NCBI RefSeq assembly: GCF_947166265.1
Contig: NZ_CAMVDO010000030.1
Coordinates: forward strand, 1 to 32,211
Direction: 5' to 3'
Length of the DNA stretch: 32,211 nucleotides
Origin: an uncultured Fibrobacter sp.
Lineage (GTDB): Bacteria > Fibrobacterota > Fibrobacteria > Fibrobacterales > Fibrobacteraceae
Shown piece after piece: positions 3,054-20,334 of this stretch. Position 1 is the stretch's first letter; every line of letters starts with the position of its first letter. A program made the position numbers and the translations under genes. The notes below the pieces were generated by a model. The model was not told the origin of the DNA. It saw nothing but the letters and a program-made list of their open reading frames with translations, and ran no database searches.

Positions 3054-3137
3054 GCGGTCGTGGTGGAATTGGTAGACACGCTAGCTTGAGGTGCTAGTGG
3101 GAGCGATCCCATGACAGTTCAAGTCTGTCCGACCGCA
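3054..3137 (+). tRNA. tRNA-Leu(GAG), copy 3
   Basis: This is the third identical 84-nt tRNA-Leu with anticodon GAG. Its leader and terminator copy those of the gene at 2769. Three genes for one GAG isoacceptor fit the heavy use of CTC leucine codons in tpiA, acn and leuB of this window. Confidence 0.97.
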
Positions 3138-3204: not shown

Positions 3205-4413
3205 TTACTTAGAAAGGGCCTTCACGGCATCTGTCAGGCGATTGATCGCCTGGATGAGTTCATCCATCTTGGCTTCGCTCACGCCACCCTGCACAACGGC
3301 GGCGGCATTAGTGGCTGTCGCAGCAGCAGAAGCCAAGGCCCCTGATGCCGAAGGGACAGATTCCTTTACAGGAACCTTGCCGAGCCAGATGTCCGGCCAA
3401 CGGTCATTACCGGTATGGTAGGTAACGCGAGTTGCCGATTCGACCGGTTCACCAATCTTCCAGATGTACAGTTCGTAGTCGAACAAGTCGTGGTCATGGC
3501 CCTTGTCGGTTGCCCCCCAGACAAGCCACTTGCCATCGGGAGAAAGGCGCGGGAAGTATTCGTGGCTACGACGACCGGGCAAGTCCATCAGTTTCACGTT
3601 CTTGGGAATCCCAAAGAAACCGACCTTTTCAATCTGCTTGCCATCCTTGGCGCTGAACCAGAGGATTTCACTCGGAGCAGCCGTGCCACCGTTACCCGTC
3701 GGGTTCACGCGGTAAAGCTTGGATCCGTCAAAATTCCAGTCAATCTGGCAACCGTCGCCGGACTTGGTCCAGGCATTCTTTGCCAAATCCCACACGCCCG
3801 TTTCGCGCATGGAACCGCGGAGCGTGATCGCCAAATGCTTACCGTCGGGGCTCATGTTCGGCTCCTGCAGAATCACGCCGGACTTGTTAAAGGCCTTTTC
3901 ACCATCGAGCACAAGGGTCTCTTTCTTGCTTGCAAGGTCCATCGTGAACACCTTGCCGGCGCGGCTAAACACAATCGACTTGCCGTCGGGTCTCCAGGTA
4001 CCCCACGTGGCGTTGTCCACCACCTTACGAGCGTTTTCGCCCGAGATGTCGACCATCCACAAGTCCCACTTTTCCGGGTAGTTGGCATCGTTTTCGGGAA
4101 CCCAGCCGCCCTTGCTGCGGTTAAAGAGCACCGTAGAACCATCGGGAGAAATGCGCGGGAACCAGTCCACGTTGTCGCCACTCGTAAGCGCATGCGGATT
4201 GGTACCGTCTGCGTTCATCATCCAGATATCGTGATGCGAATTTGCACGACTCGTCGCCCACACAATGGCCCCTTCCAGCTTTCCCTTGAGAGCGTCAAGC
4301 GCTTTCTGTTCATCGCCCGTCGGATCTACAGCGGCTCCTGTGGGAGCTCCCTGTTGCGCAAATACAGTCGAAAAAGCCAATAGGGCGGGAATTGCAAATT
4401 TCATCAATTTCAT
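3205..4413 (-). CDS. Exported TolB/WD40-like beta-propeller protein
   Basis: The 402-residue product starts with a Sec signal peptide (MKLMKFAIPALLAFSTVFAQ), so it is probably periplasmic or surface-exposed. The body has repeated PD40/TolB-type blades: MNADGTNPHALTSG, then ISPDGSTVLFNRS, then WRPDGKSIVFSRAG, then MSPDGKHLAIT, then LSPDGKWLVWGAT. These form a beta-propeller like the TolB C-terminal domain. The N-terminal TolB domain is absent. The last ~50 residues are Ala-rich, then helical (ILQAINRLTDAVKAL-like). GAGGT sits 5 nt ahead of the ATG at 4413. The gene is divergent from the GH5 cellulase and convergent with the third tRNA. It probably binds a ligand or polymer; I see no catalytic motif and cannot assign a function. 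Confidence 0.8.
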   Translation of the reverse strand: MKLMKFAIPALLAFSTVFAQQGAPTGAAVDPTGDEQKALDALKGKLEGAIVWATSRANSHHDIWMMNADGTNPHALTSGDNVDWFPRISPDGSTVLFNRSKGGWVPENDANYPEKWDLWMVDISGENARKVVDNATWGTWRPDGKSIVFSRAGKVFTMDLASKKETLVLDGEKAFNKSGVILQEPNMSPDGKHLAITLRGSMRETGVWDLAKNAWTKSGDGCQIDWNFDGSKLYRVNPTGNGGTAAPSEILWFSAKDGKQIEKVGFFGIPKNVKLMDLPGRRSHEYFPRLSPDGKWLVWGATDKGHDHDLFDYELYIWKIGEPVESATRVTYHTGNDRWPDIWLGKVPVKESVPSASGALASAAATATNAAAVVQGGVSEAKMDELIQAINRLTDAVKALSK

Positions 4414-4613
4414 ATATACCTCAAAAGGGTTCGTTCCTGAGGAAACGGACCGTTTATCCGCAATCTAGTAAATTCCCCTCCAAAATAAGGAACATAAAGC
4501 CCCAAAAACATAATCCAAGTCACACTTTACACGCGCGTAAACAAAAAAGAAGCTCTTTTTTAATCTTTTTTCGGTAATAAAACTTATTTTCAGAAAAAAA
4601 AAGGATGACCACA

Positions 4614-5966
4614 ATGAAAAGAATCTCAAAACTCGCCATTCTTTCTTCTTTAGCGCTCAGTTCCACTTTCGCAGTGGCCCAGGACATCACTCCCACCCGC
4701 GTGGGTCCTGTCAGCCAGTACGGTCAGCTGATGACCGGCAAGAACTCGCAGGGCAAAGGCCGCATCTATGGCAGCTGCGAAGGCGTCAAGGACGGTGCGG
4801 AAGTCCAAGTGCGCGGCATGAGCCTTTACTGGAGCCTGTTGCCCAAGGCAACTGAATTCTGGACCGAAGAAGGTGTCAGCACCATGGTGCGCGACATGAA
4901 CATCCAGATTGTGCGAGCAGCCATGGCAACTGGCAGCGATGACTGGTGGGGCTGCAAGGATGGTTCAGAAAGTTGCGGCGATGACAAGTCCGCCCATATT
5001 ACCGGCTATGCCAGCGATCCAGAATTTCAGAAGAACCTCATGAAGACCGTTGTTGAAGCAGCCATCAAGAACGACATCTACGTAATCATTGACTGGCATT
5101 CCCACAATGCTAACGAACAGACCGAATCCGCAAAGACTTTCTTTAAAGAAATGGCACAGACCTACGGTCAATACGACAACGTCATTTTCGAACTTTTTAA
5201 CGAACCGACGGACATTGCGTGGAGCGTCATCAAGAATTACGCCAACCAAGTCGTGCCAGTCATTCGCGAATACTCCGACAACCTGATTCTTGTCGGCAAC
5301 AGGCAGTACGACCAGAATCCGCAAGAAGCCATCGGCAATACGGTTTCTGGCGAAAACATCGCCTATACCTTCCACTATTACGCCAATTCCCACTGCTGGA
5401 GCGGGCAGACCACCTGGGGATCAGCTTGCGAAGGCGCCAACGCACAGCAGGCAATCGATGCAGGTCTTTCCGTGTTCGTTTCCGAATGGGGCACGGGTAA
5501 CGCCGATGGCGGCGGCACTCCCGATCAGAGCAAGAACACGGGCTGGCAAAACTGGATTGACGGCAACAAGCTTTCCTGGGCGAACTGGTCCGCCTCCAAA
5601 ATTGACGAAGGAACCGCCGCATTCCAGGGATCTTCGAGCAAGACTTCGCTCCAGTACACCACTTCTGGCAACCTCGTAAAGAGCTATCTTGCCACCAATC
5701 CCACGAGCTATACCAAGTGCGGTGGCAGCGAAACCCCAACCTTTGCCAAGGCTACACACAACTTCAACACCAGCTTTGACGGCAAGGCATTGCATATTGC
5801 AGGCACGTCTGCAACCGTTGAAATCTATACCCTTAAGGGCGACAAGCTGATGAAAGTCGACCATGTGAGCGGAACACTTTCGCTTGCAAGCCTCCCTGCA
5901 GGCAAGTACATCGCAAAGATTCAGGGAAACGCAACAAACATGGTGCGCGTATTCCAGGTAAAATAA
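4614..5966 (+). CDS. Secreted GH5 endoglucanase (cellulase)
   Basis: This family 5 glycoside hydrolase cleaves internal beta-1,4-glucosidic bonds, fitting a cellulose-degrading organism. An ATG also occurs at 4605, but AAGGA (4601-4605) overlaps it and is well spaced for the ATG at 4614, giving 450 residues. Signal peptide residues 1-23 end in FAVAQ. GH5 marks: DWHSH (about 160-164), FELFNEP with acid/base Glu ~197, TFHYYA, and FVSEWG with nucleophile Glu ~291. The domain ends near residue 370. The last ~65 residues (FDGKALHIAG..., VEIYTLKGDKL, LPAGKYIAKI, MVRVFQVK) look like a beta-rich C-terminal sorting domain of the type IX secretion kind, reported for Fibrobacter cellulases. No carbohydrate-binding module is evident. 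A terminator follows at 5992. Confidence 0.94.
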   Translation: MKRISKLAILSSLALSSTFAVAQDITPTRVGPVSQYGQLMTGKNSQGKGRIYGSCEGVKDGAEVQVRGMSLYWSLLPKATEFWTEEGVSTMVRDMNIQIVRAAMATGSDDWWGCKDGSESCGDDKSAHITGYASDPEFQKNLMKTVVEAAIKNDIYVIIDWHSHNANEQTESAKTFFKEMAQTYGQYDNVIFELFNEPTDIAWSVIKNYANQVVPVIREYSDNLILVGNRQYDQNPQEAIGNTVSGENIAYTFHYYANSHCWSGQTTWGSACEGANAQQAIDAGLSVFVSEWGTGNADGGGTPDQSKNTGWQNWIDGNKLSWANWSASKIDEGTAAFQGSSSKTSLQYTTSGNLVKSYLATNPTSYTKCGGSETPTFAKATHNFNTSFDGKALHIAGTSATVEIYTLKGDKLMKVDHVSGTLSLASLPAGKYIAKIQGNATNMVRVFQVK

Positions 5967-5991
5967 ATTCGTTTAATCAACGAGAGAGAAA

Positions 5992-6024
5992 GGGAGGCGT
6001 GGCTTTGGCTGCGCCTCTCTTTTT
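5992..6024 (+). terminator. Intrinsic terminator after the GH5 gene
   Basis: GGGAGGCG pairs with CGCCTCTC (one G-T pair) and is followed by TTTTTA. It overlaps the TAA of the convergent gene ending at 6023 and may slow transcription from both sides. Confidence 0.8.
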
Positions 6025-7651
6025 ATTTCTTATCGAATACAACAAAGTAGTCGTCACGATACGCAAGGCGCCAACGCGGGGTCTTTTCAAGAGCGTGAAG
6101 CAGGGAATCCCAACGGGCATAATAACGCAGCGGAAAAACGGCACGGTCGATGTTCAATGAATCGGCATCGGCAAGGAATAGCGCCGGATTATTTGCATAT
6201 TCCAGATACCGCTCAAAAAAATCGGCTGTTTTCAGAATAAACCTTCCATCAATGTAGATGGAGTCTGTCGGATTCATAAAAGCAAAGTAGCCGCCCGCAC
6301 GGTCGTCGTTGAAAAGCCTACCGGCATGCAGGTGTTGCAGCATCCAGTTCGCCGCACCGACAGGAACACGCTGATAAGCGACCATCGAAGAATCGTAAGC
6401 AGAAAGGGAGCGCCCCCAGAGACCTAGGAGGAACGCAGCACAGACGAGAGACGAAAGACGAGAGACGAAAGAACAACTTAGTGGGAAGAACTTAGAATTT
6501 AGATGTTTAAATGAAGAATGAAGAATGAAGAATGAAGAATGATCTTTTTTAATTTTTATTTTTTCATTTCTCATTCCCAAAAGTACGGGCAAGAACAGCA
6601 CGAAGTTGCGTTCGGCGACAAGGGCGAGGATTGCGGTTACAAGGAGGGCTGCGTTTTGCACCATTTTTCTAGAGATTGCTTCGCTCCCTAGAGGTCCTTC
6701 GACTACGAGCTTCGCACGGAGTTTACCCTGAGCTTGTCGAATGGGCTCAGGATGGCACATAAAAAAGAACCTTGTGCACCAAATAATTCCTGCCACGCAA
6801 AGCGCAATCATCAACACACACTCTAGCGTATTCTCCCCCGCCATCAGAAGCGTAATGGGAGAACGGTTCTCGGCGATTTCACTGGCGAAAACGGCAGCGG
6901 ACGGAGAAAGTCCCAATAGGCGATCCAACAGCCCGAACGGATACAGGAACAGGTTCAGCCCTTCACGGTGCAAGAACGGCATGGCAAACAACGCAAGGAC
7001 AAAAGCAATACGCCACGCAAAAGACTTTAGCGAAACATTCTCCCCCGCTCTGCGAGAATCCCAGATAAAGGCAACCAAAACAAGCAACGCAAAAAGTGGT
7101 CCTAAAATGTAAAGCCCCTGGCATTTGCACCAGAACCACTGAATGGCAAGGACTAAGGTTACAGTACCGCAACTAGAGATTGCCACGCCCCTGCGGGGCT
7201 CGCAATGACGTTTTTCATTTTCAAACAAAGTGCGACCAATGTTCCCGAGGAAAACACTCGGCAAGACATTCCAATAGATTCCAAGGAACAATAGCGAAAA
7301 TAGCACCGGGCGCAATTCAAGATGGTAACGGAATATGAAAAGGAGAAAAACCGCAATGACATTCTTTGGCGGTTCGCAGGAACGCAAGAAAAGTGCAAAT
7401 ACGATTCCCCATAACATCGCCTTGAACGCCACCAACAAAGGAGCGCCACCCAGGCCGTAGACAAAGCTCAAGACCATTTGAAAGTACTCGTGAACATTCA
7501 CCACAGGTGTGCGCACTGGCGTCCATGTCGTCACCCATTCACGGGCACACGCCAAATGCCACCAGATATCGGTATCGGTCAGCGGGAAAATCGAAAACAG
7601 CGCGGCAAACGCAGCAATGAGTAAAGCCGTCCTGTTCACTGACAAACGCAT
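6023..7651 (-). CDS. Polytopic membrane protein (GT-C-like), with in-frame repeat insertions
   Basis: This is the last gene of the minus-strand operon and starts 3 nt after the stop of the lipoprotein gene at 7655. The 542 residues include many hydrophobic segments. An early luminal-type motif, TDTDIWWHLACAREWV (residues ~25-40), and a soluble C-terminal segment (ANWMLQHL, NDDRAGGYFAF, YIDGR, DYFVVFDKK) recall the large group of uncharacterised GT-C/PMT-like membrane proteins. I cannot name a substrate. Three stretches look like translated dispersed repeats rather than native protein: residues 148-159 (RHCEPRRGVAIS), ~299-327 (CHPEPIRQAQGKLRAKLVVE and on) and ~361-404 (encoded by short tandem repeats). 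They fall between hydrophobic segments and the frame stays open. Confidence 0.7.
   Translation of the reverse strand: MRLSVNRTALLIAAFAALFSIFPLTDTDIWWHLACAREWVTTWTPVRTPVVNVHEYFQMVLSFVYGLGGAPLLVAFKAMLWGIVFALFLRSCEPPKNVIAVFLLFIFRYHLELRPVLFSLLFLGIYWNVLPSVFLGNIGRTLFENEKRHCEPRRGVAISSCGTVTLVLAIQWFWCKCQGLYILGPLFALLVLVAFIWDSRRAGENVSLKSFAWRIAFVLALFAMPFLHREGLNLFLYPFGLLDRLLGLSPSAAVFASEIAENRSPITLLMAGENTLECVLMIALCVAGIIWCTRFFFMCHPEPIRQAQGKLRAKLVVEGPLGSEAISRKMVQNAALLVTAILALVAERNFVLFLPVLLGMRNEKIKIKKDHSSFFILHSSFKHLNSKFFPLSCSFVSRLSSLVCAAFLLGLWGRSLSAYDSSMVAYQRVPVGAANWMLQHLHAGRLFNDDRAGGYFAFMNPTDSIYIDGRFILKTADFFERYLEYANNPALFLADADSLNIDRAVFPLRYYARWDSLLHALEKTPRWRLAYRDDYFVVFDKK
6442..6470. repeat. Tandem 14-bp repeat inside the membrane-protein gene
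   Basis: GACGAGAGACGAAA occurs twice in direct tandem (6443-6456, 6457-6470). It is translated on the minus strand as part of the SFVSRLSSLVC region. Confidence 0.85.
6510..6542. repeat. Tandem heptamer repeat inside the membrane-protein gene
   Basis: AATGAAG occurs four times plus a partial fifth unit. Read on the minus strand it encodes a FILHSSF-type repeat. A 7-bp unit shifts frame with each copy-number change, so slippage here could switch the gene off or on. Confidence 0.9.
6674..6759. repeat. Dispersed repeat embedded in the membrane-protein gene (type A)
   Basis: The stretch contains GGTCCTTCGACTACGAGCTT, then CCTGAGCTTGTCGAATGGGC, then TCAGGATGGCAC. It matches the intergenic ATCCTTCGACTACG...GCTCAGGATGACA element at 20429-20470. 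It is translated on the minus strand as residues ~299-327. Confidence 0.75.
7178..7210. repeat. Dispersed palindromic repeat embedded in the membrane-protein gene (type B)
   Basis: ATTGC...GCAAT encloses GCCCC-TGC-GGGGC-like arms, and the element ends in AATGACG. It is a compact imperfect palindrome, translated on the minus strand as HCEPRRGVAI. Confidence 0.7.
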
Positions 7652-7654
7652 CTG

Positions 7655-10405
7655 TTACCTTTCAAGCGTCTTAAGTAAAGAATCCAGACGCTGCGTAGTC
7701 TGCGCCGCCCCAAGAGCACTCAGGTGATCCGTATTCAGCGCCATCTCGTCGGAATAATCGTGCTTTCCGTTCTTATTTTCATCCATCAAGGTGAAAACCC
7801 GATGATGTTTCTGCATTTTTTTCAACGAATCCAGTACCTCGGCCGCCACAGAACGCCTTGGCCCGTAACGTCCCCACGCCCCTGTTTCTTGGTAACGGGG
7901 ATTCTGTGGAAAAATCACCCCCACGACACGGATGTTCAAGGAATCCATTCGACCGAGAAAATCGTCCAACCGAGCAAGGTTCCACGGAATCTGTTCGGTG
8001 CGTTCATCAGTCCAGTTCGAATCGGATTCCACTAGCGGCAAGCCCCATTCCACTTCGCCATTGGCAGAAAATCCGCGAGACGCTTCGTACGCCATTTTCG
8101 ATGCGGAATAATTTGCCGCGGCATCGACCGCATTCACAAAATCCTTGGGCAGTTCCTCTTTCCAGAAGAAGTGGTTTGCGTCATAGACGTAGCCCGGTGC
8201 ATTCCGGAAATGTTCATCCGTATACTCTACCGTTGTCTGCCACAGGTCTAGATCAAGTGAAACGATAACCGCCTTTAACTTACTCAAATGGTTTACGCCA
8301 TAATTTTCAGCAACATATAAAGAGGCATTCAACTCATTACCGGGATGTCCCATATTCAGCGCAAAGCCGGATGTCATCTGCGTTACGGCAATACCGTCCT
8401 CGACTCTGGAACTTCCTACGCAAAGGATTTCGACATCATCCTTATACTTCCAGAGCATCGTCATCTTGAAGCCGAGCGCTTCGTGCATCCAGTCCTGCCC
8501 ACTTACAAAATAAATTCCCGCACTATCCAAATCCAAAAGCGACGTTTCCTTTTCGGCGGTCTCGGTTTTCTTGAACCACAGACACGGATGCCAAAGTTCC
8601 TCACCTTCGGCAAGGTCAATCAGAGAAGAATCCTTCAAATTAATCAGGACCATTTTCTGGTGCGCGCCATTTACATTCGCAAGGGAAGCCACCACGAGAT
8701 TTTCAGAGCCAATCACCCATTCGCTATGGTCAAAAGAATTTCCCGCCGGAGCCCCCACAGACTGAATCAATTCACCCGATGCATCGGCCACAAGCAAACG
8801 CTTATGCGTACCATATTTTTCCCCTGCAAAATTTTGCCCTGTCGCTCCGCCAAAATCGAGGAATAAAGTCCGTTTGCTACTATCCTTTGCAAGCGAGACA
8901 TTGCATGCCTGCAAACGATTGTACCACACAAAATCCTCCGCCTTTTCCGTTACAGAGGAATGCATTTTTGCCACACGCGCACGCAAGAGTTTCGACCCCG
9001 AAACGGCGAGGGTATTATCTTCGCTAATGCCTCCATGATAGGCACCGTCAAACAACTTCTGAGGCTTACCAAACTTGCCTTTCTTAAAAGGAACCTGCCA
9101 CGTAGATTTTTTTCTGAAATCGGCGTCTTCGGTATTGTCTCCGGCATCGGTCACATAAACAATCACCGTATCCCCATTTTCAAGCACTCGCCACCGCGGA
9201 ATCGCAGCCGATTCCACATTGAGCTTGACCAAGTTTTTCTCTTTACCTTCAAGACTGCGAACATAAACCGTCGACTGTCCCGAAACCCCTTCGAGTCCGG
9301 TGCAGAAGGCTACCTTGCTTCCATCGGGAGAAATATCCGGATGGTAGGCATCGATGCCATCATCCATTTCTACCACAGACAAAGTCGCCCCGGAATAATC
9401 GATTACAGCCAAATTTCCCGTAAGGTCATTTCGGAAAACGAGTTTCATCTTGTATGTTCCCGACAATGCATGTAGCGTCGTAGAACTTGCAAGGGGAACA
9501 ATGCGACTTTCTAAAGATTGTCCGTCGTTTCCAAGCCAAGTCGCATGAGGAACCGCACCGAAGGCAAGTCGAAAGCCCACATAGTCCGCACGCGTCGAAG
9601 AGGTGACCGTATAGACATCTCCCCGACTATACAAAGTCATGGATTCTGCCAAATTGCGGTAACTTCCGCCTTTCACGACACGCTGTCCCAAGGATCCTCC
9701 ATCGGGGGCGCCCACGAAATTCAAGACTTCCGTATCGTGAAATTCGCCCAGCCAATCATTCACCCATTCCATCGCGTTTCCGGCCAAGTCGCAAAACTCG
9801 TTTGCAACATTCTTTCCACAAACCTTGTGCAGCTTGTAGTCCGAATTTTCGGCATTCCAGCTATTTTCGGGATTCCAGTCCATACTAGCGACGAGCACCC
9901 ACTCCGCCTCGGTCGGCAAACGAAACGCCTCGACATCCGGGTGATAAGCAAATCCCTCCAAATTCGTGCAATGACGGTCAGAATCAAAAATAGCCGACAC
10001 ATACGTATAAGCCGTATCAAAGCCTTCGGCCTTGCTACGCTCATTGGCAAAAAGAACCGCATCATAATACGTCACGTGGGTCGCCGGAATTTGGGCGTCG
10101 GCACAATTCAGCGAAAGTCCCGTAGATCTTTCCATCAGGGAATCAAATTCACCACAAGTCACCTCGTGCCTTGCCAGCGAAAAATCGTACCCGAAACGAA
10201 TGCGCATTTGGGGGCGTTCATTCACCTTGGCCGAAGCCTCGTCTGTACCTAGAACCACCACTTCATCAGTCGCCTTGACAAGGATCATTCCTGCAAGGGA
10301 GTCCTCTTCGACAACCGTATCGGCCCCATCTTGCGACAAAGGGCGTTCCGAGTTGGAACAGGCGCCAAGCAAGAGCAAAAGCAATCCGAGCCAAGCAAAT
10401 TTCAT
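7655..10405 (-). CDS. TIGR02171-like lipoprotein, paralogue 1 (FGE-like, beta-propeller and SGNH-like domains)
   Basis: This 916-residue lipoprotein has a signal peptide ending in LLLGAC (acylated Cys16). Residues ~40-285 form a formylglycine-generating-enzyme/sulfatase-modifying-factor fold: EVTCGEF, RLPTEAEW (162-169), DLAGNAMEWVNDW and VKGGSYRN...DYVGFRLAFG. The Cys residues that make true FGE catalytic after RGGS are absent, so this is probably a binding or structural domain. Residues ~310-610 carry PD40-type blades (DISPDGSKVAFCTG). Residues ~640-916 look SGNH-hydrolase-like: GSSR (664-667) on a VEILCVGSSR strand, and NTDHLSALGA (D893, H894) near the end. It is 12 nt downstream of paralogue 2 and 3 nt upstream of the membrane protein. 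As I recall it, the architecture and length match TIGR02171, a Fibrobacter-only paralogous family of unknown function. The domain readings are by eye. Confidence 0.85.
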   Translation of the reverse strand: MKFAWLGLLLLLLGACSNSERPLSQDGADTVVEEDSLAGMILVKATDEVVVLGTDEASAKVNERPQMRIRFGYDFSLARHEVTCGEFDSLMERSTGLSLNCADAQIPATHVTYYDAVLFANERSKAEGFDTAYTYVSAIFDSDRHCTNLEGFAYHPDVEAFRLPTEAEWVLVASMDWNPENSWNAENSDYKLHKVCGKNVANEFCDLAGNAMEWVNDWLGEFHDTEVLNFVGAPDGGSLGQRVVKGGSYRNLAESMTLYSRGDVYTVTSSTRADYVGFRLAFGAVPHATWLGNDGQSLESRIVPLASSTTLHALSGTYKMKLVFRNDLTGNLAVIDYSGATLSVVEMDDGIDAYHPDISPDGSKVAFCTGLEGVSGQSTVYVRSLEGKEKNLVKLNVESAAIPRWRVLENGDTVIVYVTDAGDNTEDADFRKKSTWQVPFKKGKFGKPQKLFDGAYHGGISEDNTLAVSGSKLLRARVAKMHSSVTEKAEDFVWYNRLQACNVSLAKDSSKRTLFLDFGGATGQNFAGEKYGTHKRLLVADASGELIQSVGAPAGNSFDHSEWVIGSENLVVASLANVNGAHQKMVLINLKDSSLIDLAEGEELWHPCLWFKKTETAEKETSLLDLDSAGIYFVSGQDWMHEALGFKMTMLWKYKDDVEILCVGSSRVEDGIAVTQMTSGFALNMGHPGNELNASLYVAENYGVNHLSKLKAVIVSLDLDLWQTTVEYTDEHFRNAPGYVYDANHFFWKEELPKDFVNAVDAAANYSASKMAYEASRGFSANGEVEWGLPLVESDSNWTDERTEQIPWNLARLDDFLGRMDSLNIRVVGVIFPQNPRYQETGAWGRYGPRRSVAAEVLDSLKKMQKHHRVFTLMDENKNGKHDYSDEMALNTDHLSALGAAQTTQRLDSLLKTLER

Positions 10406-10417
10406 GATCGATTCCTG

Positions 10418-13192
10418 CTACTTTAATTTTTTCAGTTTGGCATTCAGCCTTAAGGTCAGCTGTTTTGCACCAAGATAACTCAAATGGTCCTTATTGGATG
10501 CCATCTCATCGGTATAATCATGGTCGCCCATCTGATTTTCATCCCAAAAGACAAAGTTCGGATATTCCTTGCTCAAGTCATTCAGTTCTTTCAGCAGTTT
10601 AGGCGCCTCACTGCGGCGAATTCCATAGCGGCCCAAAGCCCCTGTTTTCTTGTAGCCCGGACTCTGCGGGAAAATCACACCGATGACGTAGACATCTTTT
10701 TCCTTCGCCTGCGTCAAGATATTTTTCAGATGCTTCATGTTGGCGTAATAGTACGCAGATCGTTCCGACATCCAGGTACTATCGTTTTCGACCGACGGTT
10801 TCGATTCCCACGTACTGGGGTCAGCAGGATTAAATCCGCGAGTTTCGACAAAGTTGCTAAAATAGGATTCCGCCCCCATCGATTCCTCTGTCAGATACAC
10901 CAACTCATCGGGAGCTCGAGGAACCCAGAATTTATGATCCCTATCATAAACATATCCGGGATAGTTCTTGTATTCCTTGTAAAAGAAATTTGATTCCGTT
11001 TTTTCACTGCGATACCACATGTCAATATCCAAAGAGATCACGACATATTTAAGATTTGTCACATGCGGGAATACATAGTTTGTCATCAAATAATCAGATG
11101 ATGCCATCATATTGGGAACATGCGCCATATTCAAGGCAAAGAACTTTTTGTCAAGCAAACTCGGATTCACACCGTCCAACGGGCGCGAAGACCCCATAAT
11201 GACGACATTTGCGGTATCCCAGTATTTCCACAATAATTCCATCTTGTAGCGAAGAATCGCAGCCGCCTCCCCGCCCCATTCGTTAAAATAGATTCCGGCA
11301 CTGTCCAAGTCCAGTTTAATGCCATCCCTAACAAAATGCCTTGGTTTCACCCACAGACACGGGTGCCACAAGTCATCGCCTTCCATAAGTTCAACAATGG
11401 AACTATCGGCCAAGTGGACAAGAGCAATCTTTTGATGAGCGCCCTTCGTATTCGTAAGGGTCGCCACCACCAGGCCACTGTCCCCCGAAGCCCATTCGCT
11501 ATGGTCGAACGTATACCCCTTAGGGGCGGCAACCGTCTGAATCAGGTCTCCACCGCTATCGGTAACGAGCAGGCGTTCATGCGTTCTGTATTTCTTTCCG
11601 ACAAACTTCTGCCCTGTTTCGCCACCAAAGTCAAGGAACAAGGTTCGCTTGCTTTTATCCTTGGCAAGGGATACATTGCAAGCCTGTTCTCCGTTATACC
11701 AGACAAGTTCGTTGATATCCGAAGCGGTTCTCGCGCCCGGCCTTGCCGAACGCGCACGAAGCACCCTTGCTCCAGAAACCGCCAAGAGGTTATCATCACT
11801 GATTCCCCCATGATAGGCCCCGTCAAACAATTTTTGCGGTTTACCGAATTTTCCGTTTTCAAATTTCACCTGCCAAGTCGAGGCACCCTTAAATGAGCTT
11901 TCATCGGCATTATTGCCGGCATCCGTCACATACACGATTACCGTATCACCGCGTGACACTCGCCAACGCGGAATGGCGGCACTTTCGACATCCAGCTGCA
12001 CCAAATTGGAACCCTCGACGTCCAGATTGCGGACATAGAGTTTCGATTTTCCCGAAATACCTTCAAGCCCCGTGCAAAAAGCGACCTTGCTTCCGTCGGG
12101 CGAAATATCGGGATGATAGGCATCAATCGTATCCACAATTTCAGTCACGGTCAAGTTCACCATGGAATAATCCACATAGGCGATATTGCCCGTCAGTTCA
12201 TTGCGGAACGCAAGCTTTGCCTTATAGGTTCCAGCCAAGGAACGCAATTTTGTCGAGTGAACCAATGGAACGACACGTGTCGTTGCGGCATTTCCATCGG
12301 CAGCAATCCACACGGCATTCGGAATGGAACCGTACGCAAGACGGAACCCCACGTAGTCGGCACGCGTCGAAGACGTCACCATATAAACGTCGCCACGGCC
12401 ATACGACGTAATCGATTCCGACGTATTCTTATAGCTACCGCCTTTCACGATGCGCTGTCCAAACGAGCCTCCATCGGGGGCACCCACATAGTTCACGACA
12501 GTCGTATCGCGGAAATATCCAAGCCAGTCATTCACCCATTCCATCGCATTTCCAAGCATATCGCATACAATGGTACTTGTGTCCGCCAAGCTGCATACCT
12601 TGTGCAGCTTGTAATCCGAATTGTCCGCCGTCCAAGCGAAAGCGGGGTCCCAGTTGGATCTTGCGACCAGCATCCATTCCGCTTCTGTCGGCAAACGGTA
12701 TGCATTGACTTCGGGGTGGAAAGCGAATCCTTCTAGGCTGGTGCAATGTTTCTGGTTGTCAAAATAGGCATGAATGTAGGTGTAAGCCGTATCGAGATCT
12801 TCGGCCTTGCTGCGTTCGTTCGCAAAAAGGACCGCATCGTAAAAAGTCAAATCCGTCGCCGGGAAATTACTCCCGTCACAGTCCAGCACAAGCTTTGTTG
12901 CAGAATGCATCAGGGAATTGAATTCCTTGCAGGTCACCTCATGACGGCCTATGGAAAAAGAGTAATCCAGCGACACCTGCATTTGCGGGCGTTCATCGGA
13001 TTTTGCATACCGGTCGTTTGTCCCTAACGAAATCGAGGCATTTTTCATTTGCACCCGAATCATGCCGTCAAGCGTATCCTGAGTAAAGTAGGCGTCCGAA
13101 TCATTCGACGATGTGACTCGTTCAGAATTGGAACACCCTACACCCAAGAACAGGGAGGCGGCAATCAAAAAGAACAATACGACACGGTTCAT
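10418..13192 (-). CDS. TIGR02171-like lipoprotein, paralogue 2
   Basis: This 924-residue lipoprotein has its lipobox LGVGC at residues 16-20. Domain order matches paralogue 1: FGE-like (EVTCKEF, RLPTEAEW, DMLGNAMEWVNDW, VKGGSYKN, DYVGFRLAYG), propeller (DISPDGSKVAFCTGLEG, LFDGAYHGGIS, LFLDFGG) and C-terminal SGNH-like region (VVIMGSSRPLDG, FALNMAHVPNMM, VISLDIDMW, NKDHLSYLGA). Its ATG overlaps the TGA of paralogue 3 (ATGA, 13189-13192), indicating translational coupling. Its C-terminal domain resembles paralogue 3 more than paralogue 1 (HVPNMMASS versus NVPNMMASS; RYGIRRSEAP in both), which points to the more recent duplication. The function is unknown. An outer-membrane or periplasmic-face location is inferred from the lipobox. 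Confidence 0.85.
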   Translation of the reverse strand: MNRVVLFFLIAASLFLGVGCSNSERVTSSNDSDAYFTQDTLDGMIRVQMKNASISLGTNDRYAKSDERPQMQVSLDYSFSIGRHEVTCKEFNSLMHSATKLVLDCDGSNFPATDLTFYDAVLFANERSKAEDLDTAYTYIHAYFDNQKHCTSLEGFAFHPEVNAYRLPTEAEWMLVARSNWDPAFAWTADNSDYKLHKVCSLADTSTIVCDMLGNAMEWVNDWLGYFRDTTVVNYVGAPDGGSFGQRIVKGGSYKNTSESITSYGRGDVYMVTSSTRADYVGFRLAYGSIPNAVWIAADGNAATTRVVPLVHSTKLRSLAGTYKAKLAFRNELTGNIAYVDYSMVNLTVTEIVDTIDAYHPDISPDGSKVAFCTGLEGISGKSKLYVRNLDVEGSNLVQLDVESAAIPRWRVSRGDTVIVYVTDAGNNADESSFKGASTWQVKFENGKFGKPQKLFDGAYHGGISDDNLLAVSGARVLRARSARPGARTASDINELVWYNGEQACNVSLAKDKSKRTLFLDFGGETGQKFVGKKYRTHERLLVTDSGGDLIQTVAAPKGYTFDHSEWASGDSGLVVATLTNTKGAHQKIALVHLADSSIVELMEGDDLWHPCLWVKPRHFVRDGIKLDLDSAGIYFNEWGGEAAAILRYKMELLWKYWDTANVVIMGSSRPLDGVNPSLLDKKFFALNMAHVPNMMASSDYLMTNYVFPHVTNLKYVVISLDIDMWYRSEKTESNFFYKEYKNYPGYVYDRDHKFWVPRAPDELVYLTEESMGAESYFSNFVETRGFNPADPSTWESKPSVENDSTWMSERSAYYYANMKHLKNILTQAKEKDVYVIGVIFPQSPGYKKTGALGRYGIRRSEAPKLLKELNDLSKEYPNFVFWDENQMGDHDYTDEMASNKDHLSYLGAKQLTLRLNAKLKKLK

Positions 13193-15969
13193 TTTTTCTC
13201 CAATTTTTCAAGTAACAGATTCAGGCGTTCCGTAAACTGTTCGGCACCCTTTTTACTCATGTGATCCTTATTGTTCGCCATGGAATCGTCATAATCATGG
13301 TCGCCCATCTGATTTTCGTCCCAGTAGACAAAATGAGGATACTCTTTTTCCAAATCCTGAAGTTCCTTCAAAAGTGCAGGTGCTTCGCTTCTACGAATTC
13401 CATAACGTCCAAAGGCTCCCGTTTTCTTAAAGTTCGGGCTTTGCGGGAAAACCACGCCAATGACATAGACACCCCGTTTTTCGGCCATCTTCAGGATATT
13501 TTCCAAATGACCGAATGCAGCCCTGTAATTGGAAGAAAGGTAATCCATCCAGGTGCTGTCATATTCAACCGTCGGATTTTCCTCCCAGCTGATCGATTCC
13601 GCGTAGCAATATCCAGAATAATACCTGAACATCTCCGCAAGGTCATTTACCCCGTAAGACTCGGTCGTCATTTCGCTTAAACCTTCGGGAACCCCCGATT
13701 TCCAGAAATCATGGTTTTCATCGTAGACATAGCCGGGATACTTCTTGTACTCGGAATAGAAGAAATTATAGTCGCTAGTTTCGTCATGATACCACAAGTC
13801 AATATCAAGCGAGATAACTAGGTATTTCAGATTCGACACGTGCGGCAAAACATAATTTTCGACAATGTATTCCGACGACGCCATCATATTGGGAACATTC
13901 GTCAGGTTCAGCGTTCTGAATTCAGGGCGCATCTTATTCGGCAAAATAGCCTGCTGCGGACGCGAGGAGCCCACCACGATGACACTTGCCGAATTCCTGT
14001 AATTCCAAAGCAGTTCCATCTTGTACCTAAAGATCATCGCCGTAAGGTCTCCGTCTTCGGTCAGGTAAAATCCCGCACTGTCGGCGTCTAGCGAGACATT
14101 TTCCGACGACGCATTAAACCGTTTAATCCAAAGGCACGGATGCCACAGTTCGTCCCCTTCGGCAAGATCCACAATCGTAGAATCCGTCAAATTCACAAGT
14201 ACAATTTTTTGATGCACCCCGTTTGCGTTCACCAGGGTCGCTACCGCAAGGTTTTTCCCACCTAAATCCCATTCGCTATGGTCAAAGGTGTAACCTGCCG
14301 GAGCACCAACCGACTGCACCAATTTTCCCGACGCATTTACGACAAGCAGGCGCTCGTGAGTCCTGTAGTTTTCACCGACGAACTTTCGCCCCTTCTTTCC
14401 GCCAAAGTCAAGGAAAAGCGTCCGCTTGCTACTATCTTTTGCCATAGATACATTACAGGCCTGATCTTCAGCGTACCATACCGTATCAAGTGAGGTTTCC
14501 GTCGTTTTCGACTTCGCGGCCCCCGACTTCACCATGTGCGACCGCAAAAGTCGCGCCCCCGTGACGGCGAGCGTATTGTCTTCGCTAATTCCACCATGAT
14601 AGGCACCGTCAAAAAGTTTTTGAGGCTTTCCGAACTTGCCTTTCGAAAATTTTACCTGCCAGGTCGATGATGCCATAAAAGCCGATTCATCGTTATTGAC
14701 CCCTGCATCGTTCACATAGACAATAACAGTATCGCCGTTCGCCAATACACGCCAACGCGGGATAGCGGCACTTTCGACTTTCAGCTTTACAAGGTTCGAG
14801 CCCTCCGCATTCAGGTCGCGTACATAAAGTTCCGACTTGCCGCCCACTCCCTCGAACTTGGTACAGAAAGCCACCTTTTCACCATCGGGTGAAATATCCG
14901 GATGATACGCATCGAGCGTGTCTACGATTTCAGTCACAGAAAGGATTCCGCCCGCATAGTCAATATAGGCGATATTTCCCGAAAGATCATTCCTGAAAGC
15001 AAGCTTCGCCTTGTACGTCCCCGTATGGGAGCGAAGCGTTACCGCATTTGCAAGGGGAACTATCCTGCTTGTCGTCGCCCGGCCATCATCCCCCATCCAC
15101 ACGGCATTCGGAACATCACCGAAAGCAAGTCGAAAACCTACATAATCGGCCCGAGTCGAAGACGTAACCGTATACACATCGCCACGCCCGTACAGCGTGA
15201 TCGATTCGGCCATATTCTGAAAACTCCCCCCTTTCACGATACGCACCCCTAGAGCACCCCCATCGGGCGCCCCCACAAAATTCACGACGGCAGTGTCGCG
15301 GAAATGTCCAAGCCAGTCATTCACCCATTCCATCGCATTTCCGACCATATCGCACACGGGTACATCTTCTGAAACCTTGCGGCATACAGAGTGCAACTTG
15401 TAATCGGAATTGTCGGCAGTCCAGCCATCGGCTAAATTCCAGTACATTCCCGCCACGAGCACCCATTCCGCTTCGGTCGGCAGGCGGTAAGCTTTCGTTG
15501 CCGGGTGAAAGGCAAAGCCTTCCAGACTCGTGCAATGCTTTTCGGAATCAAAGACCGCGGAACGGTAGGTGTAGGCCGTATCGAATTTTTCTTTCTTGCT
15601 GCGTTCGTTTGCAAAAAGAACCGCATCGTAATAGGTCAAGTTCGTTGCAGGAATACTGTCGTTTTCACATTCGAGGGAAAGTCCCGTCGATTTTTTCATC
15701 AGTGTATTGAACTCACCACAAGTCACCTCATGGCGGCCTATGGAAAAATCATAATCCAGGGACACCTGCATCCGGGGGCGTTCCTCAGAGCGAACCAAGG
15801 AATCATTCGTCCCTAAATAAAGCACCTGTTCGTTAGTCTTTACCCGAACCATACCCATAAGGGAATCTTCCACTACGGATATTTCGGAATCCGCACTGGA
15901 CGACACGCTCCCTGAATCGGAACAGGAAACAAAAAAAAGCAAAAGCAATAGGAACAGAGCCTTCAGCAT
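13189..15969 (-). CDS. TIGR02171-like lipoprotein, paralogue 3
   Basis: This is the promoter-proximal copy of the three lipoproteins, 926 residues, with lipobox LFFVSC (Cys16). It repeats the same architecture: FGE-like domain (EVTCGEFNTLM, RLPTEAEW, DMVGNAMEWVNDW, VKGGSFQN), propeller (DISPDGEKVAFCTKFEG, LFDGAYHGGIS) and SGNH-like end (VIVVGSSRPQQ, NVPNMMASS, VISLDIDLWY, NKDHMSKKGA). As in the sister copies, no Cys follows the KGGS motif. The start ATG at 15969 lacks a clear Shine-Dalgarno; a small GCTA...TAGC hairpin lies directly upstream. It follows the transglutaminase-like gene by 36 nt and overlaps paralogue 2 by 4 nt. Confidence 0.85.
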   Translation of the reverse strand: MLKALFLLLLLFFVSCSDSGSVSSSADSEISVVEDSLMGMVRVKTNEQVLYLGTNDSLVRSEERPRMQVSLDYDFSIGRHEVTCGEFNTLMKKSTGLSLECENDSIPATNLTYYDAVLFANERSKKEKFDTAYTYRSAVFDSEKHCTSLEGFAFHPATKAYRLPTEAEWVLVAGMYWNLADGWTADNSDYKLHSVCRKVSEDVPVCDMVGNAMEWVNDWLGHFRDTAVVNFVGAPDGGALGVRIVKGGSFQNMAESITLYGRGDVYTVTSSTRADYVGFRLAFGDVPNAVWMGDDGRATTSRIVPLANAVTLRSHTGTYKAKLAFRNDLSGNIAYIDYAGGILSVTEIVDTLDAYHPDISPDGEKVAFCTKFEGVGGKSELYVRDLNAEGSNLVKLKVESAAIPRWRVLANGDTVIVYVNDAGVNNDESAFMASSTWQVKFSKGKFGKPQKLFDGAYHGGISEDNTLAVTGARLLRSHMVKSGAAKSKTTETSLDTVWYAEDQACNVSMAKDSSKRTLFLDFGGKKGRKFVGENYRTHERLLVVNASGKLVQSVGAPAGYTFDHSEWDLGGKNLAVATLVNANGVHQKIVLVNLTDSTIVDLAEGDELWHPCLWIKRFNASSENVSLDADSAGFYLTEDGDLTAMIFRYKMELLWNYRNSASVIVVGSSRPQQAILPNKMRPEFRTLNLTNVPNMMASSEYIVENYVLPHVSNLKYLVISLDIDLWYHDETSDYNFFYSEYKKYPGYVYDENHDFWKSGVPEGLSEMTTESYGVNDLAEMFRYYSGYCYAESISWEENPTVEYDSTWMDYLSSNYRAAFGHLENILKMAEKRGVYVIGVVFPQSPNFKKTGAFGRYGIRRSEAPALLKELQDLEKEYPHFVYWDENQMGDHDYDDSMANNKDHMSKKGAEQFTERLNLLLEKLEKK

Positions 15970-16005
15970 CGCTAAAAAATAGCAATTTAAGGAGGCTTAC
16001 TTTAT

Positions 16006-16752
16006 TTAAAGGTGGTCAGGCAAACGGCTTTTCGCGATTTCCTGATTCGCCTTGATTCCCGGATACTCCGGAAAGAACGTTTCGGCCATGCGGTACCACG
16101 TCAAGGCGCGCCGCAAGTCGGAATCCAGATAGAGGTTTCCCATGTTAAAGGCGGCAAGCCCCACAAACTGCGTCGACGACAAGGGCATGAATTCTAGCCC
16201 CGTCCAAGGGCCGTTCCGGTATTTTCCGCGATATTCTTCGTCGGTATAGCGGAAACCTTCGCGATTGGGTTCCAGATTTTGCACCGTCGAAGAATCTTCC
16301 CCATAACGAAGGAACACATGCCCCGGCAACATCACCACCGAAAGTGGAATATGCCTAGCCTCGGCCACCATCATTGCAAGCCACGAAAGCCCCATGCAAC
16401 CGGATTTTTTAGTTTGCAAGACACGCATCGGAAGTATCGCATTTTCGGATACGGCAGGCTCCCCTGCACCGGCGAATTCAAGTTTCCAATACTCCCACAA
16501 GAGTCGCTTCAGGCTCTGCAAGGTATCACCAGACGCCTTCAGCGAACTATCGTAAAAGGCAAGTCCCCCGCTCCACGCCGCCACGGAATCGAGGCAGCCG
16601 GGCATACGGTCTTCAAATGAGCATGCCGCGTCGCGAAAGCCCATATTTTCGGCCCGGCCGCTCCAAAGCACAAGCGCCAGTGACGCCGCAAACACGATAA
16701 TTAGCGTCGGCCAAAACAGGCGCTTCGCAAGACGGGATAACCTAGAGAACAT
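16006..16752 (-). CDS. Membrane-anchored transglutaminase-like protein
   Basis: The 248-residue product has one N-terminal hydrophobic segment (residues ~14-31) preceded by basic residues, so it is probably anchored in the inner membrane and faces the periplasm. The core SGCMGLSWLAMMVAEARHIP (Cys119), followed by MLPGHVFLRY (His145) and NLEPN, matches the Cys-His-Asp/Asn pattern of SirB1-type transglutaminase-like proteins. The C-terminal ~50 residues (FNMGNLYLDSDLRRALTWYR) read like a TPR unit. The family includes peptidase-like and non-enzymatic members, so the activity is open. It starts 6 nt after the AlgX-like gene stop and precedes paralogue 3 by 36 nt, so it belongs to the same operon. 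Confidence 0.75.
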   Translation of the reverse strand: MFSRLSRLAKRLFWPTLIIVFAASLALVLWSGRAENMGFRDAACSFEDRMPGCLDSVAAWSGGLAFYDSSLKASGDTLQSLKRLLWEYWKLEFAGAGEPAVSENAILPMRVLQTKKSGCMGLSWLAMMVAEARHIPLSVVMLPGHVFLRYGEDSSTVQNLEPNREGFRYTDEEYRGKYRNGPWTGLEFMPLSSTQFVGLAAFNMGNLYLDSDLRRALTWYRMAETFFPEYPGIKANQEIAKSRLPDHL

Positions 16753-16758
16753 CCTAAA

Positions 16759-18747
16759 CTACAATCCATCCCATTCCATCGGAGATTGCCAGAAGTCGCG
16801 AGCGGTCATCATGTAAATCACGAGGCGCTTGCTCTGCATATCTTTCTTCATTTTCATCATGCGGTGATACACACCGGGGCCGCCACCCCAGCTCGTAAGT
16901 ACCTGCACGTCAAGTCCCGTCGCATAAGCGAGGAGCGAACCCGGACCACCACTTTTCTGATCGACCGATTCAAAGACGCCCGTAAACGAATCACCCATCA
17001 AAAGAATCGGGGCATTTTTTCCGCCCTTGTAAGGTTCAGAACCCTTGAAAATCTTCATCACAGACAAAGTATCTGCCGGATATTTAGCCTTTTCGGCATC
17101 GGGCAAATGAGCCACCAGGTCCCCTTCGCGAAGGGTAGTCGTCTCTTGCATATTGAGCGACCCCGGCTGCGCCCCCGATTCAGCGTACCAGGAATACTGC
17201 GTGACACGGGCGGCAAGCTGTTCCATCGCGGCAAGCATTCCCGGAAGCGCCCAGTGCGTATCGTAACGTTGATAGCTATAGCGCGGAGGTTCGTCACCCG
17301 TCTTCGCTGCCATTAGCGCCGGGTAAACATCCAAAACGTCGAGACCCGCCGCAAGCATTTCACGGGTGAATTCACGGCCGGCAGGGTTCACGCAGAGGTC
17401 TGCGGCAGTCCCTTCGACAAGTCGTTCCCCATAGATTTCTTCCTTGACAGGAATCGGCACCACCAGCAGCTGTACGCCAAGCGAATCCAGGTACTTCTTG
17501 AGTTCCAAGAGACGTGGAAGCGGATTATGCAACGAGTCCTGGGCCGAAATCTTATCCGCAAGCAGATAATTGGCGTTACGCCTGAACCAAAGCATTCCAT
17601 TAGACGCCCAGGCGTTCTGCTCCTTGGGGAGCTTTTTCAGCGTCTTCGAGAGATTCTCCTTAAACTTTTTAGTCGCATCATTTGCAGGGCATGTTCCTTC
17701 GAGCGAGGCCAATGTTTCCAGGCGGAACGTGGAACTCGTATCAAGGACGCGGTTCACCGGAACGACTTCACCTACTGCAGCCAGGGAATCCGCTACCGCT
17801 TTGGCACGCAAGGCCTCGTCACTCAACCGAAACGCCGGAACATCGAAAGCGATCCACATCGGGGTCCCCATCGGATTTCCGCGCATCACCGCAAACGGTC
17901 GACTCTCCTTGAGAGACTCCCAGGGAGCACCCGGCGTATGCGGTTCCAGGTCAGTATTGAGCGTCGGGTACCAGTAAGAAGACAACGTCCGAGCCCAATT
18001 CAGGGCGTCTTCGGCAGACATTTCCGCCGTCAGGTAATAATTCAGGATTTCAGCTGTTTCGCCACGCGACACGTGTTTCAGCTTTCCGTAGAACGCCGTA
18101 CGCCCCGTCCACACCGCAGGCATCACCTCGGCCCACCATTGCACCGAGCCGTCACTCATGGGAATTCCCCAAAGGCGCGACACCGTCTGGAAAGCCCTGA
18201 ACACCTCAGGTTCGCCCCACTTGACCGCCTCTACTTCGTTCAAAAGAACCGTCAGCGAATCGTTTCCGGTCTGGGCATAAAGAAGTTTCGCCAAGGGTTC
18301 CCAGGCCAGGGGTTGGCGCCCTGCGACAGCGGCTGGTTCATATTCCGTAAGGGAATCTAGCATCGGAAACGGGTAATCCCCTATTGCAGTCCCCGACATT
18401 TTTCCTGCGTAGTTTTCAGGCTTTTCCTCTTTTCCGGCATAGCGAATCGGATTGGCAAAATAAGCCGCAAAATCGAGGGCCGCCAAGGTCGGCCGGTCAA
18501 TGACTCTAGCCTGCCTATCGGCATCCGCGATTTTCATTTCGAACACCGTCACCGGAGTGGAAGGGACCGGAGGCAAAGCCTGCGGAGGAACCGACTCCGT
18601 TTCTAAAGCAGTCTCATTTTCAGGAACGGGTTCATCGGTTGAAGGCTGCTGCTTGTTCGAAGCACAAGAAAGAAGCGTAAGTGAGAAAGACATAGAAACT
18701 GCAACGGCAGTTCCTCTAAGGCAAGATCTGTATATATCGTGTTTCAC
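16759..18747 (-). CDS. AlgX/AlgJ-like SGNH lipoprotein
   Basis: This is the first gene of the six-gene operon. The frame stays open to a GTG at 18816 with a GAGGGG-like ribosome site. The GTG at 18747 is preferred because it gives a sensible lipoprotein signal (KHDIYRSC..., lipobox LLSC) and 662 residues; the longer form would put ~50 residues ahead of the lipobox. The C-terminal half carries the AlgX/AlgJ order of catalytic residues: RYDTHWALPG (Asp and His, codons near 17254), then LLMGDSFTG (Ser, codon 16987-16989). In alginate O-acetylation, proteins of this type transfer acetyl groups to periplasmic polysaccharide. The N-terminal ~300 residues are unrecognised. No MBOAT partner (AlgI-like) occurs in the window. 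Acetyltransferase function is inference. Confidence 0.78.
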   Translation of the reverse strand: MKHDIYRSCLRGTAVAVSMSFSLTLLSCASNKQQPSTDEPVPENETALETESVPPQALPPVPSTPVTVFEMKIADADRQARVIDRPTLAALDFAAYFANPIRYAGKEEKPENYAGKMSGTAIGDYPFPMLDSLTEYEPAAVAGRQPLAWEPLAKLLYAQTGNDSLTVLLNEVEAVKWGEPEVFRAFQTVSRLWGIPMSDGSVQWWAEVMPAVWTGRTAFYGKLKHVSRGETAEILNYYLTAEMSAEDALNWARTLSSYWYPTLNTDLEPHTPGAPWESLKESRPFAVMRGNPMGTPMWIAFDVPAFRLSDEALRAKAVADSLAAVGEVVPVNRVLDTSSTFRLETLASLEGTCPANDATKKFKENLSKTLKKLPKEQNAWASNGMLWFRRNANYLLADKISAQDSLHNPLPRLLELKKYLDSLGVQLLVVPIPVKEEIYGERLVEGTAADLCVNPAGREFTREMLAAGLDVLDVYPALMAAKTGDEPPRYSYQRYDTHWALPGMLAAMEQLAARVTQYSWYAESGAQPGSLNMQETTTLREGDLVAHLPDAEKAKYPADTLSVMKIFKGSEPYKGGKNAPILLMGDSFTGVFESVDQKSGGPGSLLAYATGLDVQVLTSWGGGPGVYHRMMKMKKDMQSKRLVIYMMTARDFWQSPMEWDGL

Positions 18748-19011: not shown

Positions 19012-20334
19012 ATGCAAGCCGAATGGGAAAGATGTTTGAATTACCTCCGTGGAATGCTTTCGGACACGGTCTATAAGACCTATTTCGCACAGACCAAGCT
19101 CACCAGTCTGACCACAGGCCACGCCGTCGTCTCTGTCCCTCCCGGACTGGACACCGCAGTCTATTCCGCATACAAGGAACTTATCCGACTCGCCTGGCGC
19201 GAAGTCACGCACGACGAATCGGCAATAGAATTCGATTTCCAGCAGCAAGAAGCCGTGGCTCAGCCGCAGGTTTCCACCAACAGTTTCCGCGACTTTATCA
19301 AGCCGAGCATTCCGCTGTCGGGTTCTTTCCGCTTCGAAAACTTTGTGCCCGGAGACAAGGCGCAGCTCGCATTCAACGCAGCCCTCGCCGTTGCACGTAA
19401 CCCCGACGGAACGCAGTACAACCCGCTGTTTATTTACGGTTCTTCGGGACTTGGTAAGACGCACCTTTTGCAGGCTATTGGCAACTACATCTTGGAAGAA
19501 GACCCGACCAAGCGCGTGTGCTACCTGACTTCCGAAGACTTTTCTCAGCAGTACATGAAGTGCCTGCGCGAACAGCGCATCACCGAAATGTCGGACTTCT
19601 ACAGAAACGACGTCGACATTCTCCTTATCGACGATATTCAGAACTGGACCGGCAAATACGAAACGCAGAACGAATTTTTCTTGATCTTCAACGCGCTGCA
19701 TCAGGCTGGAAAGCAGATCGTGCTCACTTCCGATGCGCCCGCCGCCGAAGTCAAGAACCTCTCCGACCGCCTCGTCAGCCGCTTTGCCTGGGGCCTTACC
19801 GTAGACATCCAGCCGCCTGACGTTGAAACTCGCGAAGCCATTCTTCACAAGAAGGCAGAAGAACGCCACCTGGAAATCAGCGACGAAGTGTTGCACTACC
19901 TCGCCGAAAGCATCGCAAGCAACGTGCGTTGCCTCGAAAGTGCCATCATCAAGCTCACGCTGCAGTCGAGCCTGATGAGTCACGATATCGACATGAACAT
20001 TGCGCAGAAGGTCGTCGCCGAAATTGCACCGACGCTTCGTCGCCGTGTAAGCCTCGACGCCGTATTGCACACCGTTTCCAAGCATTACGAAGTTCCCGAA
20101 GCCAAGCTCACCGAATCGGGCCGCGGCACCAAGGAAATTTCAAAGGCACGTCAGGTCGCCATGTACCTGATGCGCGAATGCTCCCCCATCAGCCTGCAGA
20201 GCATCGGCTCGCGCTTTGGCGGAAAGGACCACTCCACCGTCGTTCACGCCATCAAGAGCGTGAAAAAGGAAATGGAGACGGATCCGAGCTTCGCAAGACT
20301 CATCGAAAGCCTCAAAAACTCGATTCACGACTAA
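19012..20334 (+). CDS. dnaA: Chromosomal replication initiator DnaA
   Basis: DnaA binds DnaA boxes at oriC and opens the duplex using ATP. The protein has 440 residues, normal to slightly short. Seen: N-terminal domain I (WERCLNYLRG, residues ~5-14), a short linker (~75-95), AAA+ domain with Walker A GSSGLGKT (143-150), Walker B DILLIDDIQ (202-210), an SRFAWGL sensor region, and DNA-binding domain IV with the signature GGKDHSTVVHA (403-413; textbook GGRDHTTVLHA). AAGGA lies 7 nt ahead of the ATG. The gene is alone: dnaN, recF and gyrB, frequent neighbours elsewhere, do not follow. It is divergent from the lipoprotein operon, with DnaA-box-like sites between. Confidence 0.97.
   Translation: MQAEWERCLNYLRGMLSDTVYKTYFAQTKLTSLTTGHAVVSVPPGLDTAVYSAYKELIRLAWREVTHDESAIEFDFQQQEAVAQPQVSTNSFRDFIKPSIPLSGSFRFENFVPGDKAQLAFNAALAVARNPDGTQYNPLFIYGSSGLGKTHLLQAIGNYILEEDPTKRVCYLTSEDFSQQYMKCLREQRITEMSDFYRNDVDILLIDDIQNWTGKYETQNEFFLIFNALHQAGKQIVLTSDAPAAEVKNLSDRLVSRFAWGLTVDIQPPDVETREAILHKKAEERHLEISDEVLHYLAESIASNVRCLESAIIKLTLQSSLMSHDIDMNIAQKVVAEIAPTLRRRVSLDAVLHTVSKHYEVPEAKLTESGRGTKEISKARQVAMYLMRECSPISLQSIGSRFGGKDHSTVVHAIKSVKKEMETDPSFARLIESLKNSIHD

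Follow-up and report, generated by a model that had tools for sequence, protein, structure and literature searches.

What is the role of six closely spaced genes that bring together an AlgX/AlgJ-like lipoprotein, a transglutaminase-like protein (TG protein), three large lipoproteins of the TIGR02171 family and a polytopic membrane protein? We analyzed these genes in a 32,211-nt stretch of DNA (hereafter the window) from an uncultured Fibrobacter sp. (assembly GCF_947166265.1, contig NZ_CAMVDO010000030.1, positions 1 to 32,211), where they form an operon on the minus strand at 6023-18747. On balance, we favor the reading that the operon encodes the periplasmic/outer-membrane part of an MBOAT-SGNH O-acylation system which, together with a GT-C glycosyltransferase, acts on a surface polymer. 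The gene set, its synteny and co-inheritance, the sequence motifs and the predicted folds that bear on this reading were computed here.

The six-gene operon and its conservation in Fibrobacter

An earlier note on this DNA had described an operon with intergenic gaps of 6, 36, -4, 12 and 3 nt, and all six open reading frames (ORFs), their coordinates and the gaps were borne out. The first gene encodes the AlgX/AlgJ-like lipoprotein (16759-18747, 662 aa, PF16822) and begins with GTG, a longer GTG start at 18816 also being possible. It is followed by the genes for the TG protein, which carries an inner-membrane anchor (16006-16752, 248 aa, PF13369), and for TIGR02171 lipoproteins 1 (13189-15969, 926 aa, 1281.8 bits), 2 (10418-13192, 924 aa, 1267.5 bits) and 3 (7655-10405, 916 aa, 1299.7 bits). 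The last gene (6023-7651) encodes the membrane protein, for which a GT-C fold was predicted from the alignment, an AlphaFold model of an ortholog and Foldseek. Shuffled sequence had terminator-like sites at least as often as the interior of the operon. At its far end a hairpin of 17 pairs followed by a T tail (5987-6024, plus strand), probably a two-way terminator, lies between the operon and a convergent GH5 cellulase gene (4605-5966, plus strand).

Of 61 genomes sampled across the genus, 49 had the TG gene, 48 the GT-C gene and 47 a full-length AlgX-like gene. The AlgX-like and TG genes were adjacent and on the same strand in all 47 genomes having both. TG and GT-C genes shared a contig and strand in 46 genomes, at distances clustering at multiples of 2.77 kb, and the interval held one to six TIGR02171 genes (partly seen directly). 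The spacing therefore indicates that the ends of the operon are fixed while the TIGR02171 array between them grows and shrinks. Order, orientation and spacing were kept in 47 genomes, and the six-gene arrangement is far beyond chance. Loss of synteny among relatives had been named beforehand as evidence that would count against the operon; the synteny was present in essentially every relative carrying the genes.

Operon-bearing genomes contained 4 to 12 full-length TIGR02171 copies. The expectation that TIGR02171 genes of Fibrobacter neighbor AlgX-like and TG genes held for the copies in operon arrays, whereas the other copies were mostly orphans elsewhere; the operon is one home of the family and not its universal context. 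A tree of 82 copies showed that the genes have duplicated and shifted between operon and orphan sites, only close species sharing the same positions, and fixed positional orthology was accordingly rejected. Fused double genes with open frames of ~1840 aa were also rejected, as the ORFs were separate in genome G080.

Co-inheritance of the AlgX-like, TG, TIGR02171, GT-C, AlgJ-like and MBOAT (MBOAT1) genes was evaluated in the same set. All six components were found in 46 genomes and none in nine; the six mixed genomes were all at most 84% complete. Presence and absence of a seventh component, a PD40 gene, followed the same pattern, and among the 33 genomes at least 90% complete all seven occurred in 31 and were lacking in two. 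Fisher values overstate this association because the genomes are not independent. In a tree of a second, always-present MBOAT, nine operon-lacking genomes fell in one clade of small genomes, a member of which (G084) retained two residual TIGR02171 genes. Two more operon-lacking genomes, incomplete at ~71%, fell outside that clade.

A wider gene set across the phylum

A GT-C profile survey of the phylum Fibrobacterota uncovered homologous clusters in further genera. The contiguous order MBOAT, AlgJ-like, AlgX-like, TG, GT-C and PD40 was found in genomes G132 and G095. Genome G142 had the same order with no recognized PD40 gene, and in G092 an MBOAT fragment at the contig end preceded AlgJ-like, AlgX-like and GT-C genes. 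The AlgX/GT-C core thus stood directly behind MBOAT and AlgJ-like genes in four genera besides Fibrobacter, three of them with TG included. The genus that comprises G096, G098 and G137 had the order AlgX-like, TG, GT-C, one or two TIGR02171 genes and PD40. A PD40-MBOAT-AlgJ arrangement was present in G049, and MBOAT and SGNH genes were contiguous in G054 too. The core occurs beyond Fibrobacter, in other classes of the phylum.

The PD40 gene of these clusters has its counterpart at 3205-4413 of the window (minus strand), outside the interval of the earlier note, where it encodes a PD40/TolB-like propeller protein (402 aa; PF07676, 1.7e-16). The gene set is therefore wider than was first seen: this PD40 gene and the unlinked MBOAT and AlgJ-like genes belong to it. 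In the window genome MBOAT1 (C4:59040-60455, locus L166) and the AlgJ-like gene (C45:5710-7332) are both unlinked to the operon. MBOAT1 lay 6.9-8.7 kb from the operon in five related genomes, and the AlgJ-like gene 10.5-15 kb from it in five; this loose linkage fits a split ancestral cluster, the genomes involved being closely related. Our preferred reading is that the six operon genes, conserved in most of Fibrobacter, make up one half of a system that spans the phylum and has been split.

Components of the proposed acylation module

The AlgX-like protein matched PF16822 (ALGX, E 1.7e-18) over residues 402-625 of 662. This C-terminal part is a permuted SGNH-like domain, preceded by a domain without assignment at ~60-370. 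It carries D496-x-H498-W and GDS587, and D496, H498 and S587 were invariant in 15 genomes. The profile aligned with that of the AlgJ-like protein, itself matching PF16822 at E 4.6e-28, with an hhalign probability of 99.8%, while a PDB sequence search with the AlgX-like profile gave no match. In Pseudomonas AlgX (D174/H176/S269) and AlgJ (D190/H192/S288) the D-x-H motif likewise precedes the Ser motif (PMC4148444), so that the AlgX-like residues have the same permuted order with similar spacing. However, AlgX has an N-terminal SGNH domain followed by a C-terminal carbohydrate-binding module (PMC4148444), whereas the SGNH domain of the AlgX-like protein is C-terminal and an additional domain is N-terminal. 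Since the domain order differs, we did not class the protein as AlgX.

MBOAT1 ended with FLYFQF in 14 of 14 homologues, including the copy of the window genome. F-x-Y-x-x-F is the acyl-shuttle motif with which PatA and related MBOATs pass the acyl group on to their SGNH partners (PMC12148441). The second MBOAT, present in all genomes, ends in a similar motif (FIYFQF), and the motif therefore marks the MBOAT class and not this system alone. An MBOAT with a C-terminal F-x-Y-x-x-F and two permuted SGNH proteins is also the composition of AlgI-AlgJ-AlgX in alginate O-acetylation of Pseudomonas, and an MBOAT-to-SGNH acyl relay is found in PatA-PatB (peptidoglycan O-acetylation) and DltB-DltD. Unlike the alginate system, the window is without alginate machinery, and TG, GT-C, PD40 and TIGR02171 genes are added.

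Directly upstream of MBOAT1 (L166:7602-8000) lies a gene for a small secreted protein of ~132 aa without a Pfam match, which is conserved in G054 and in most of the Fibrobacteraceae that were checked. It is a possible AlgF-like partner.

The TG protein matched PF13369 (Transglut_core2, E 2e-8, 34.3 bits vs a cut-off of 23.5). C119, H145 and N159/E161 were invariant in the alignment. Its C-terminal tail is TPR-like, with a weak TPR match (0.019). With the PF16822 and TIGR02171 matches, this bears out the family assignments of the earlier note. A distant TG homologue was seen in a Chitinivibrionales genome (L129:9902-10633), with neither an AlgX nor a GT-C gene adjacent.

The membrane protein and its possible acceptors

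The membrane protein had no match in Pfam, and a PDB search with its profile gave no sequence match to a solved structure. The AlphaFold model of its G005 ortholog was of moderate confidence (pLDDT 64, pTM 0.63). With this model, 20 of the 20 top Foldseek matches were GT-C enzymes (best E 8.6e-5, TM ~0.4-0.5), including DPY19, OST/STT3, AglB and AftA, and ALG12 also matched. A DTD motif near the N-terminus (D17 and D19 in the G005 protein) was invariant in the alignment, and such an acidic motif is shared with the GT-C glycosyltransferases OST/STT3, DPY19 and AftA. The protein is thus predicted to have a GT-C fold with the acidic first-loop motif present, in line with the GT-C-like character proposed from its sequence.

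The same matches raise the alternative that proteins are modified: the GT-C protein would glycosylate surface proteins, the SGNH proteins would acylate the glycan, and the TIGR02171 proteins would be receptors or chaperones. The best Foldseek matches (DPY19, STT3/OST and AglB) are protein glycosyltransferases, and cellulose-binding proteins of Fibrobacter succinogenes are glycoproteins according to Gong 1996, as cited in PMC3079729. However, the glycan-acceptor enzymes AftA and ALG12 match too, the pLDDT of the model is 64, and AlgX/AlgJ/MBOAT systems of established function target polysaccharides. We regard protein modification as unlikely and retain O-acylation of a surface polymer as the preferred reading.

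Two repeat-insert regions were observed in the membrane protein gene, both on the minus strand and in frame. For the first, CHPEPIRQAQGKLRAKLVVEG (6647-6796), 37 of 150 nt matched a second genomic locus at 97%, and the alignment rows of relatives had no counterpart. The second, KRHCEPRRGVAIS (7157-7264), contained a 41-nt match (93%) to a site elsewhere within the same gene of G036. Both fall in variable loops and are translated, and they are reminiscent of rickettsial palindromic elements.

Predicted domains of the TIGR02171 lipoproteins

NCBIfam assigns no function to TIGR02171, and we found no paper on the family in the open-access literature searched; the present analysis places it in a genomic context and proposes a domain model. 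The three operon proteins scored 1267-1300 bits over their full length, more than twice the family cut-off of 544.35 bits. Structure prediction, which the earlier note had suggested for each domain, gave a tri-domain model for this family as well as the GT-C fold above. The AlphaFold model of lipoprotein 3 was confident (pLDDT 89.1, pTM 0.82). Conservation was evaluated in 49 sequences reaching down to 27% identity; the lipobox cysteine (C16 in lipoprotein 3) was kept in 49 of 49.

Residues 40-283 have the fold of formylglycine-generating enzymes (FGE) and C-type lectins, with Treponema denticola TvpA as the best match and PorK among the relatives of known structure. PorK/GldK and FGE (PF03781 fold) thus share this fold with TIGR02171 proteins, and PorK/GldK share the lipoprotein anchor too. 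Unlike in FGE, the catalytic copper-binding cysteine pair is missing, no Cys being conserved within 245-284 in the 49 sequences; the first domain therefore probably binds rather than catalyzes. Membership in type IX secretion was rejected, since the GldK score was 22.2 against a cut-off of 350 bits. Residues ~300-612 matched TolB propellers in Foldseek.

Residues ~635-916 show an alpha/beta order of secondary structure that fits an SGNH-like domain. G664, S666, N684 and H894 were present in all 49 sequences, and position 891 was always D or N. This is the canonical SGNH order of PatB and DltD, with Ser first and D/N-x-x-H last. The C-terminus is a probable canonical-pattern SGNH domain, and weak sequence matches point the same way. 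Unlike PatB and DltD, to which it has no significant sequence match, the TIGR02171 protein is a lipoprotein of three domains, including a lectin-like one and a propeller. Two profile comparisons were set aside: the full TIGR02171 profile matched the AlgX-like protein only through a signal-peptide artefact, and the C-terminal profile matched the AlgJ-like one at an insufficient 24% probability.

These data also bear on a structural alternative, namely that TIGR02171 proteins are non-enzymatic scaffolds of the envelope, similar to PorK/GldK, whose FGE and SGNH folds have degenerated and whose genes are simply transcribed along with an acylation module. The lack of the FGE cysteines and the relationship of the FGE-like domain to PorK agree with this, but invariance of S666, N684 and H894 down to 27% identity is unexpected for a dead fold, and we consider the scaffold explanation quite improbable. 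That their SGNH domains are esterases deacetylating plant cell-wall polysaccharides, the operon serving fibre digestion and not the cell's own surface, would suit a fibre-degrading genus, a lipoprotein anchor and a GH5 cellulase gene adjoining the operon in several genomes, but is very unlikely: the strict core partners (MBOAT, AlgX-like, GT-C) are biosynthetic, the core extends beyond Fibrobacter to further classes of the phylum, and the GH5 gene, being convergent, past the terminator and absent beside the operon in some genomes, was rejected as an operon member.

Proposed surface polymer modification

For the favored O-acylation system, we infer the chemistry, the polymer, the acyl group, the outer-membrane location and the TG and TIGR02171 steps as follows. 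Acyl-CoA would donate an acyl group, probably acetyl, to the MBOAT encoded elsewhere, which would take it up on the Tyr of the FLYFQF motif at its C-terminus. From there the group would pass to the catalytic Ser of the AlgJ-like and AlgX-like SGNH proteins, and these would transfer it onto the polymer. The GT-C protein would draw on a lipid-linked donor to attach a sugar to that polymer or its carrier, and the anchored TG protein might process, cross-link or scaffold. The TIGR02171 lipoproteins would use their lectin-like and propeller domains to bind the product and their own SGNH domain to act on it, and variable copies could give differing acceptor specificities. The earlier proposal of envelope or surface polymer modification is supported by the MBOAT/AlgJ linkage, the co-inheritance, the acyl-shuttle motif and the GT-C fold.

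Several results weigh against this reading. The window operon is without MBOAT and AlgJ-like genes, which in Fibrobacter lie at separate loci, and no polysaccharide synthase or export gene is present within the window. In other lineages of the phylum, TIGR02171 homologues occur singly, as orphans with no partner nearby. Among SGNH-type families, Pfam searches with the TIGR02171 C-terminus gave at best ALGX 0.06, DltD 0.15 and GDSL 0.16, none significant, and its profile had no match in the PDB. Finally, the joint loss of the components represents about one or two events: as the absences fall in essentially one clade, the evidence amounts to approximately one coordinated loss, involving at least four unlinked loci.

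A more speculative extension, which we hold to be doubtful, is that the TIGR02171 arrays are fast-duplicating tri-domain acyltransferases or esterases fed by one MBOAT/AlgJ source ("one donor, many writers"). If true, each copy would have its own recognition domains and the Fibrobacter surface would be diversified. The core chemistry, MBOAT-SGNH acylation, is already known; the combination with TG, GT-C, PD40 and a TIGR02171 array is new as far as the open-access literature shows, in which no description of such a gene set was found. Through the acylation module, TIGR02171, a large paralogous family without an assigned function, gains a first testable role. The gene set points to an undescribed, phylum-wide modification of a surface polymer. 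Fibrobacter is a major cellulose degrader of the rumen, and how it attaches to fibre is understood only in part.

Other features of the window

The dnaA gene (19012-20334) adjoins the operon in the window genome. The upstream neighbor varies among relatives, and a link to dnaA was rejected since other genomes carry other genes at this position. Three identical tRNA-Leu(GAG) genes are located on the plus strand (921-1004, 2769-2852 and 3054-3137), a Mur-ligase-like gene separating the first from the other two. At 28706-31044 a C-5 cytosine methylase gene abuts an HNH endonuclease gene, and the two are a probable restriction-modification pair.

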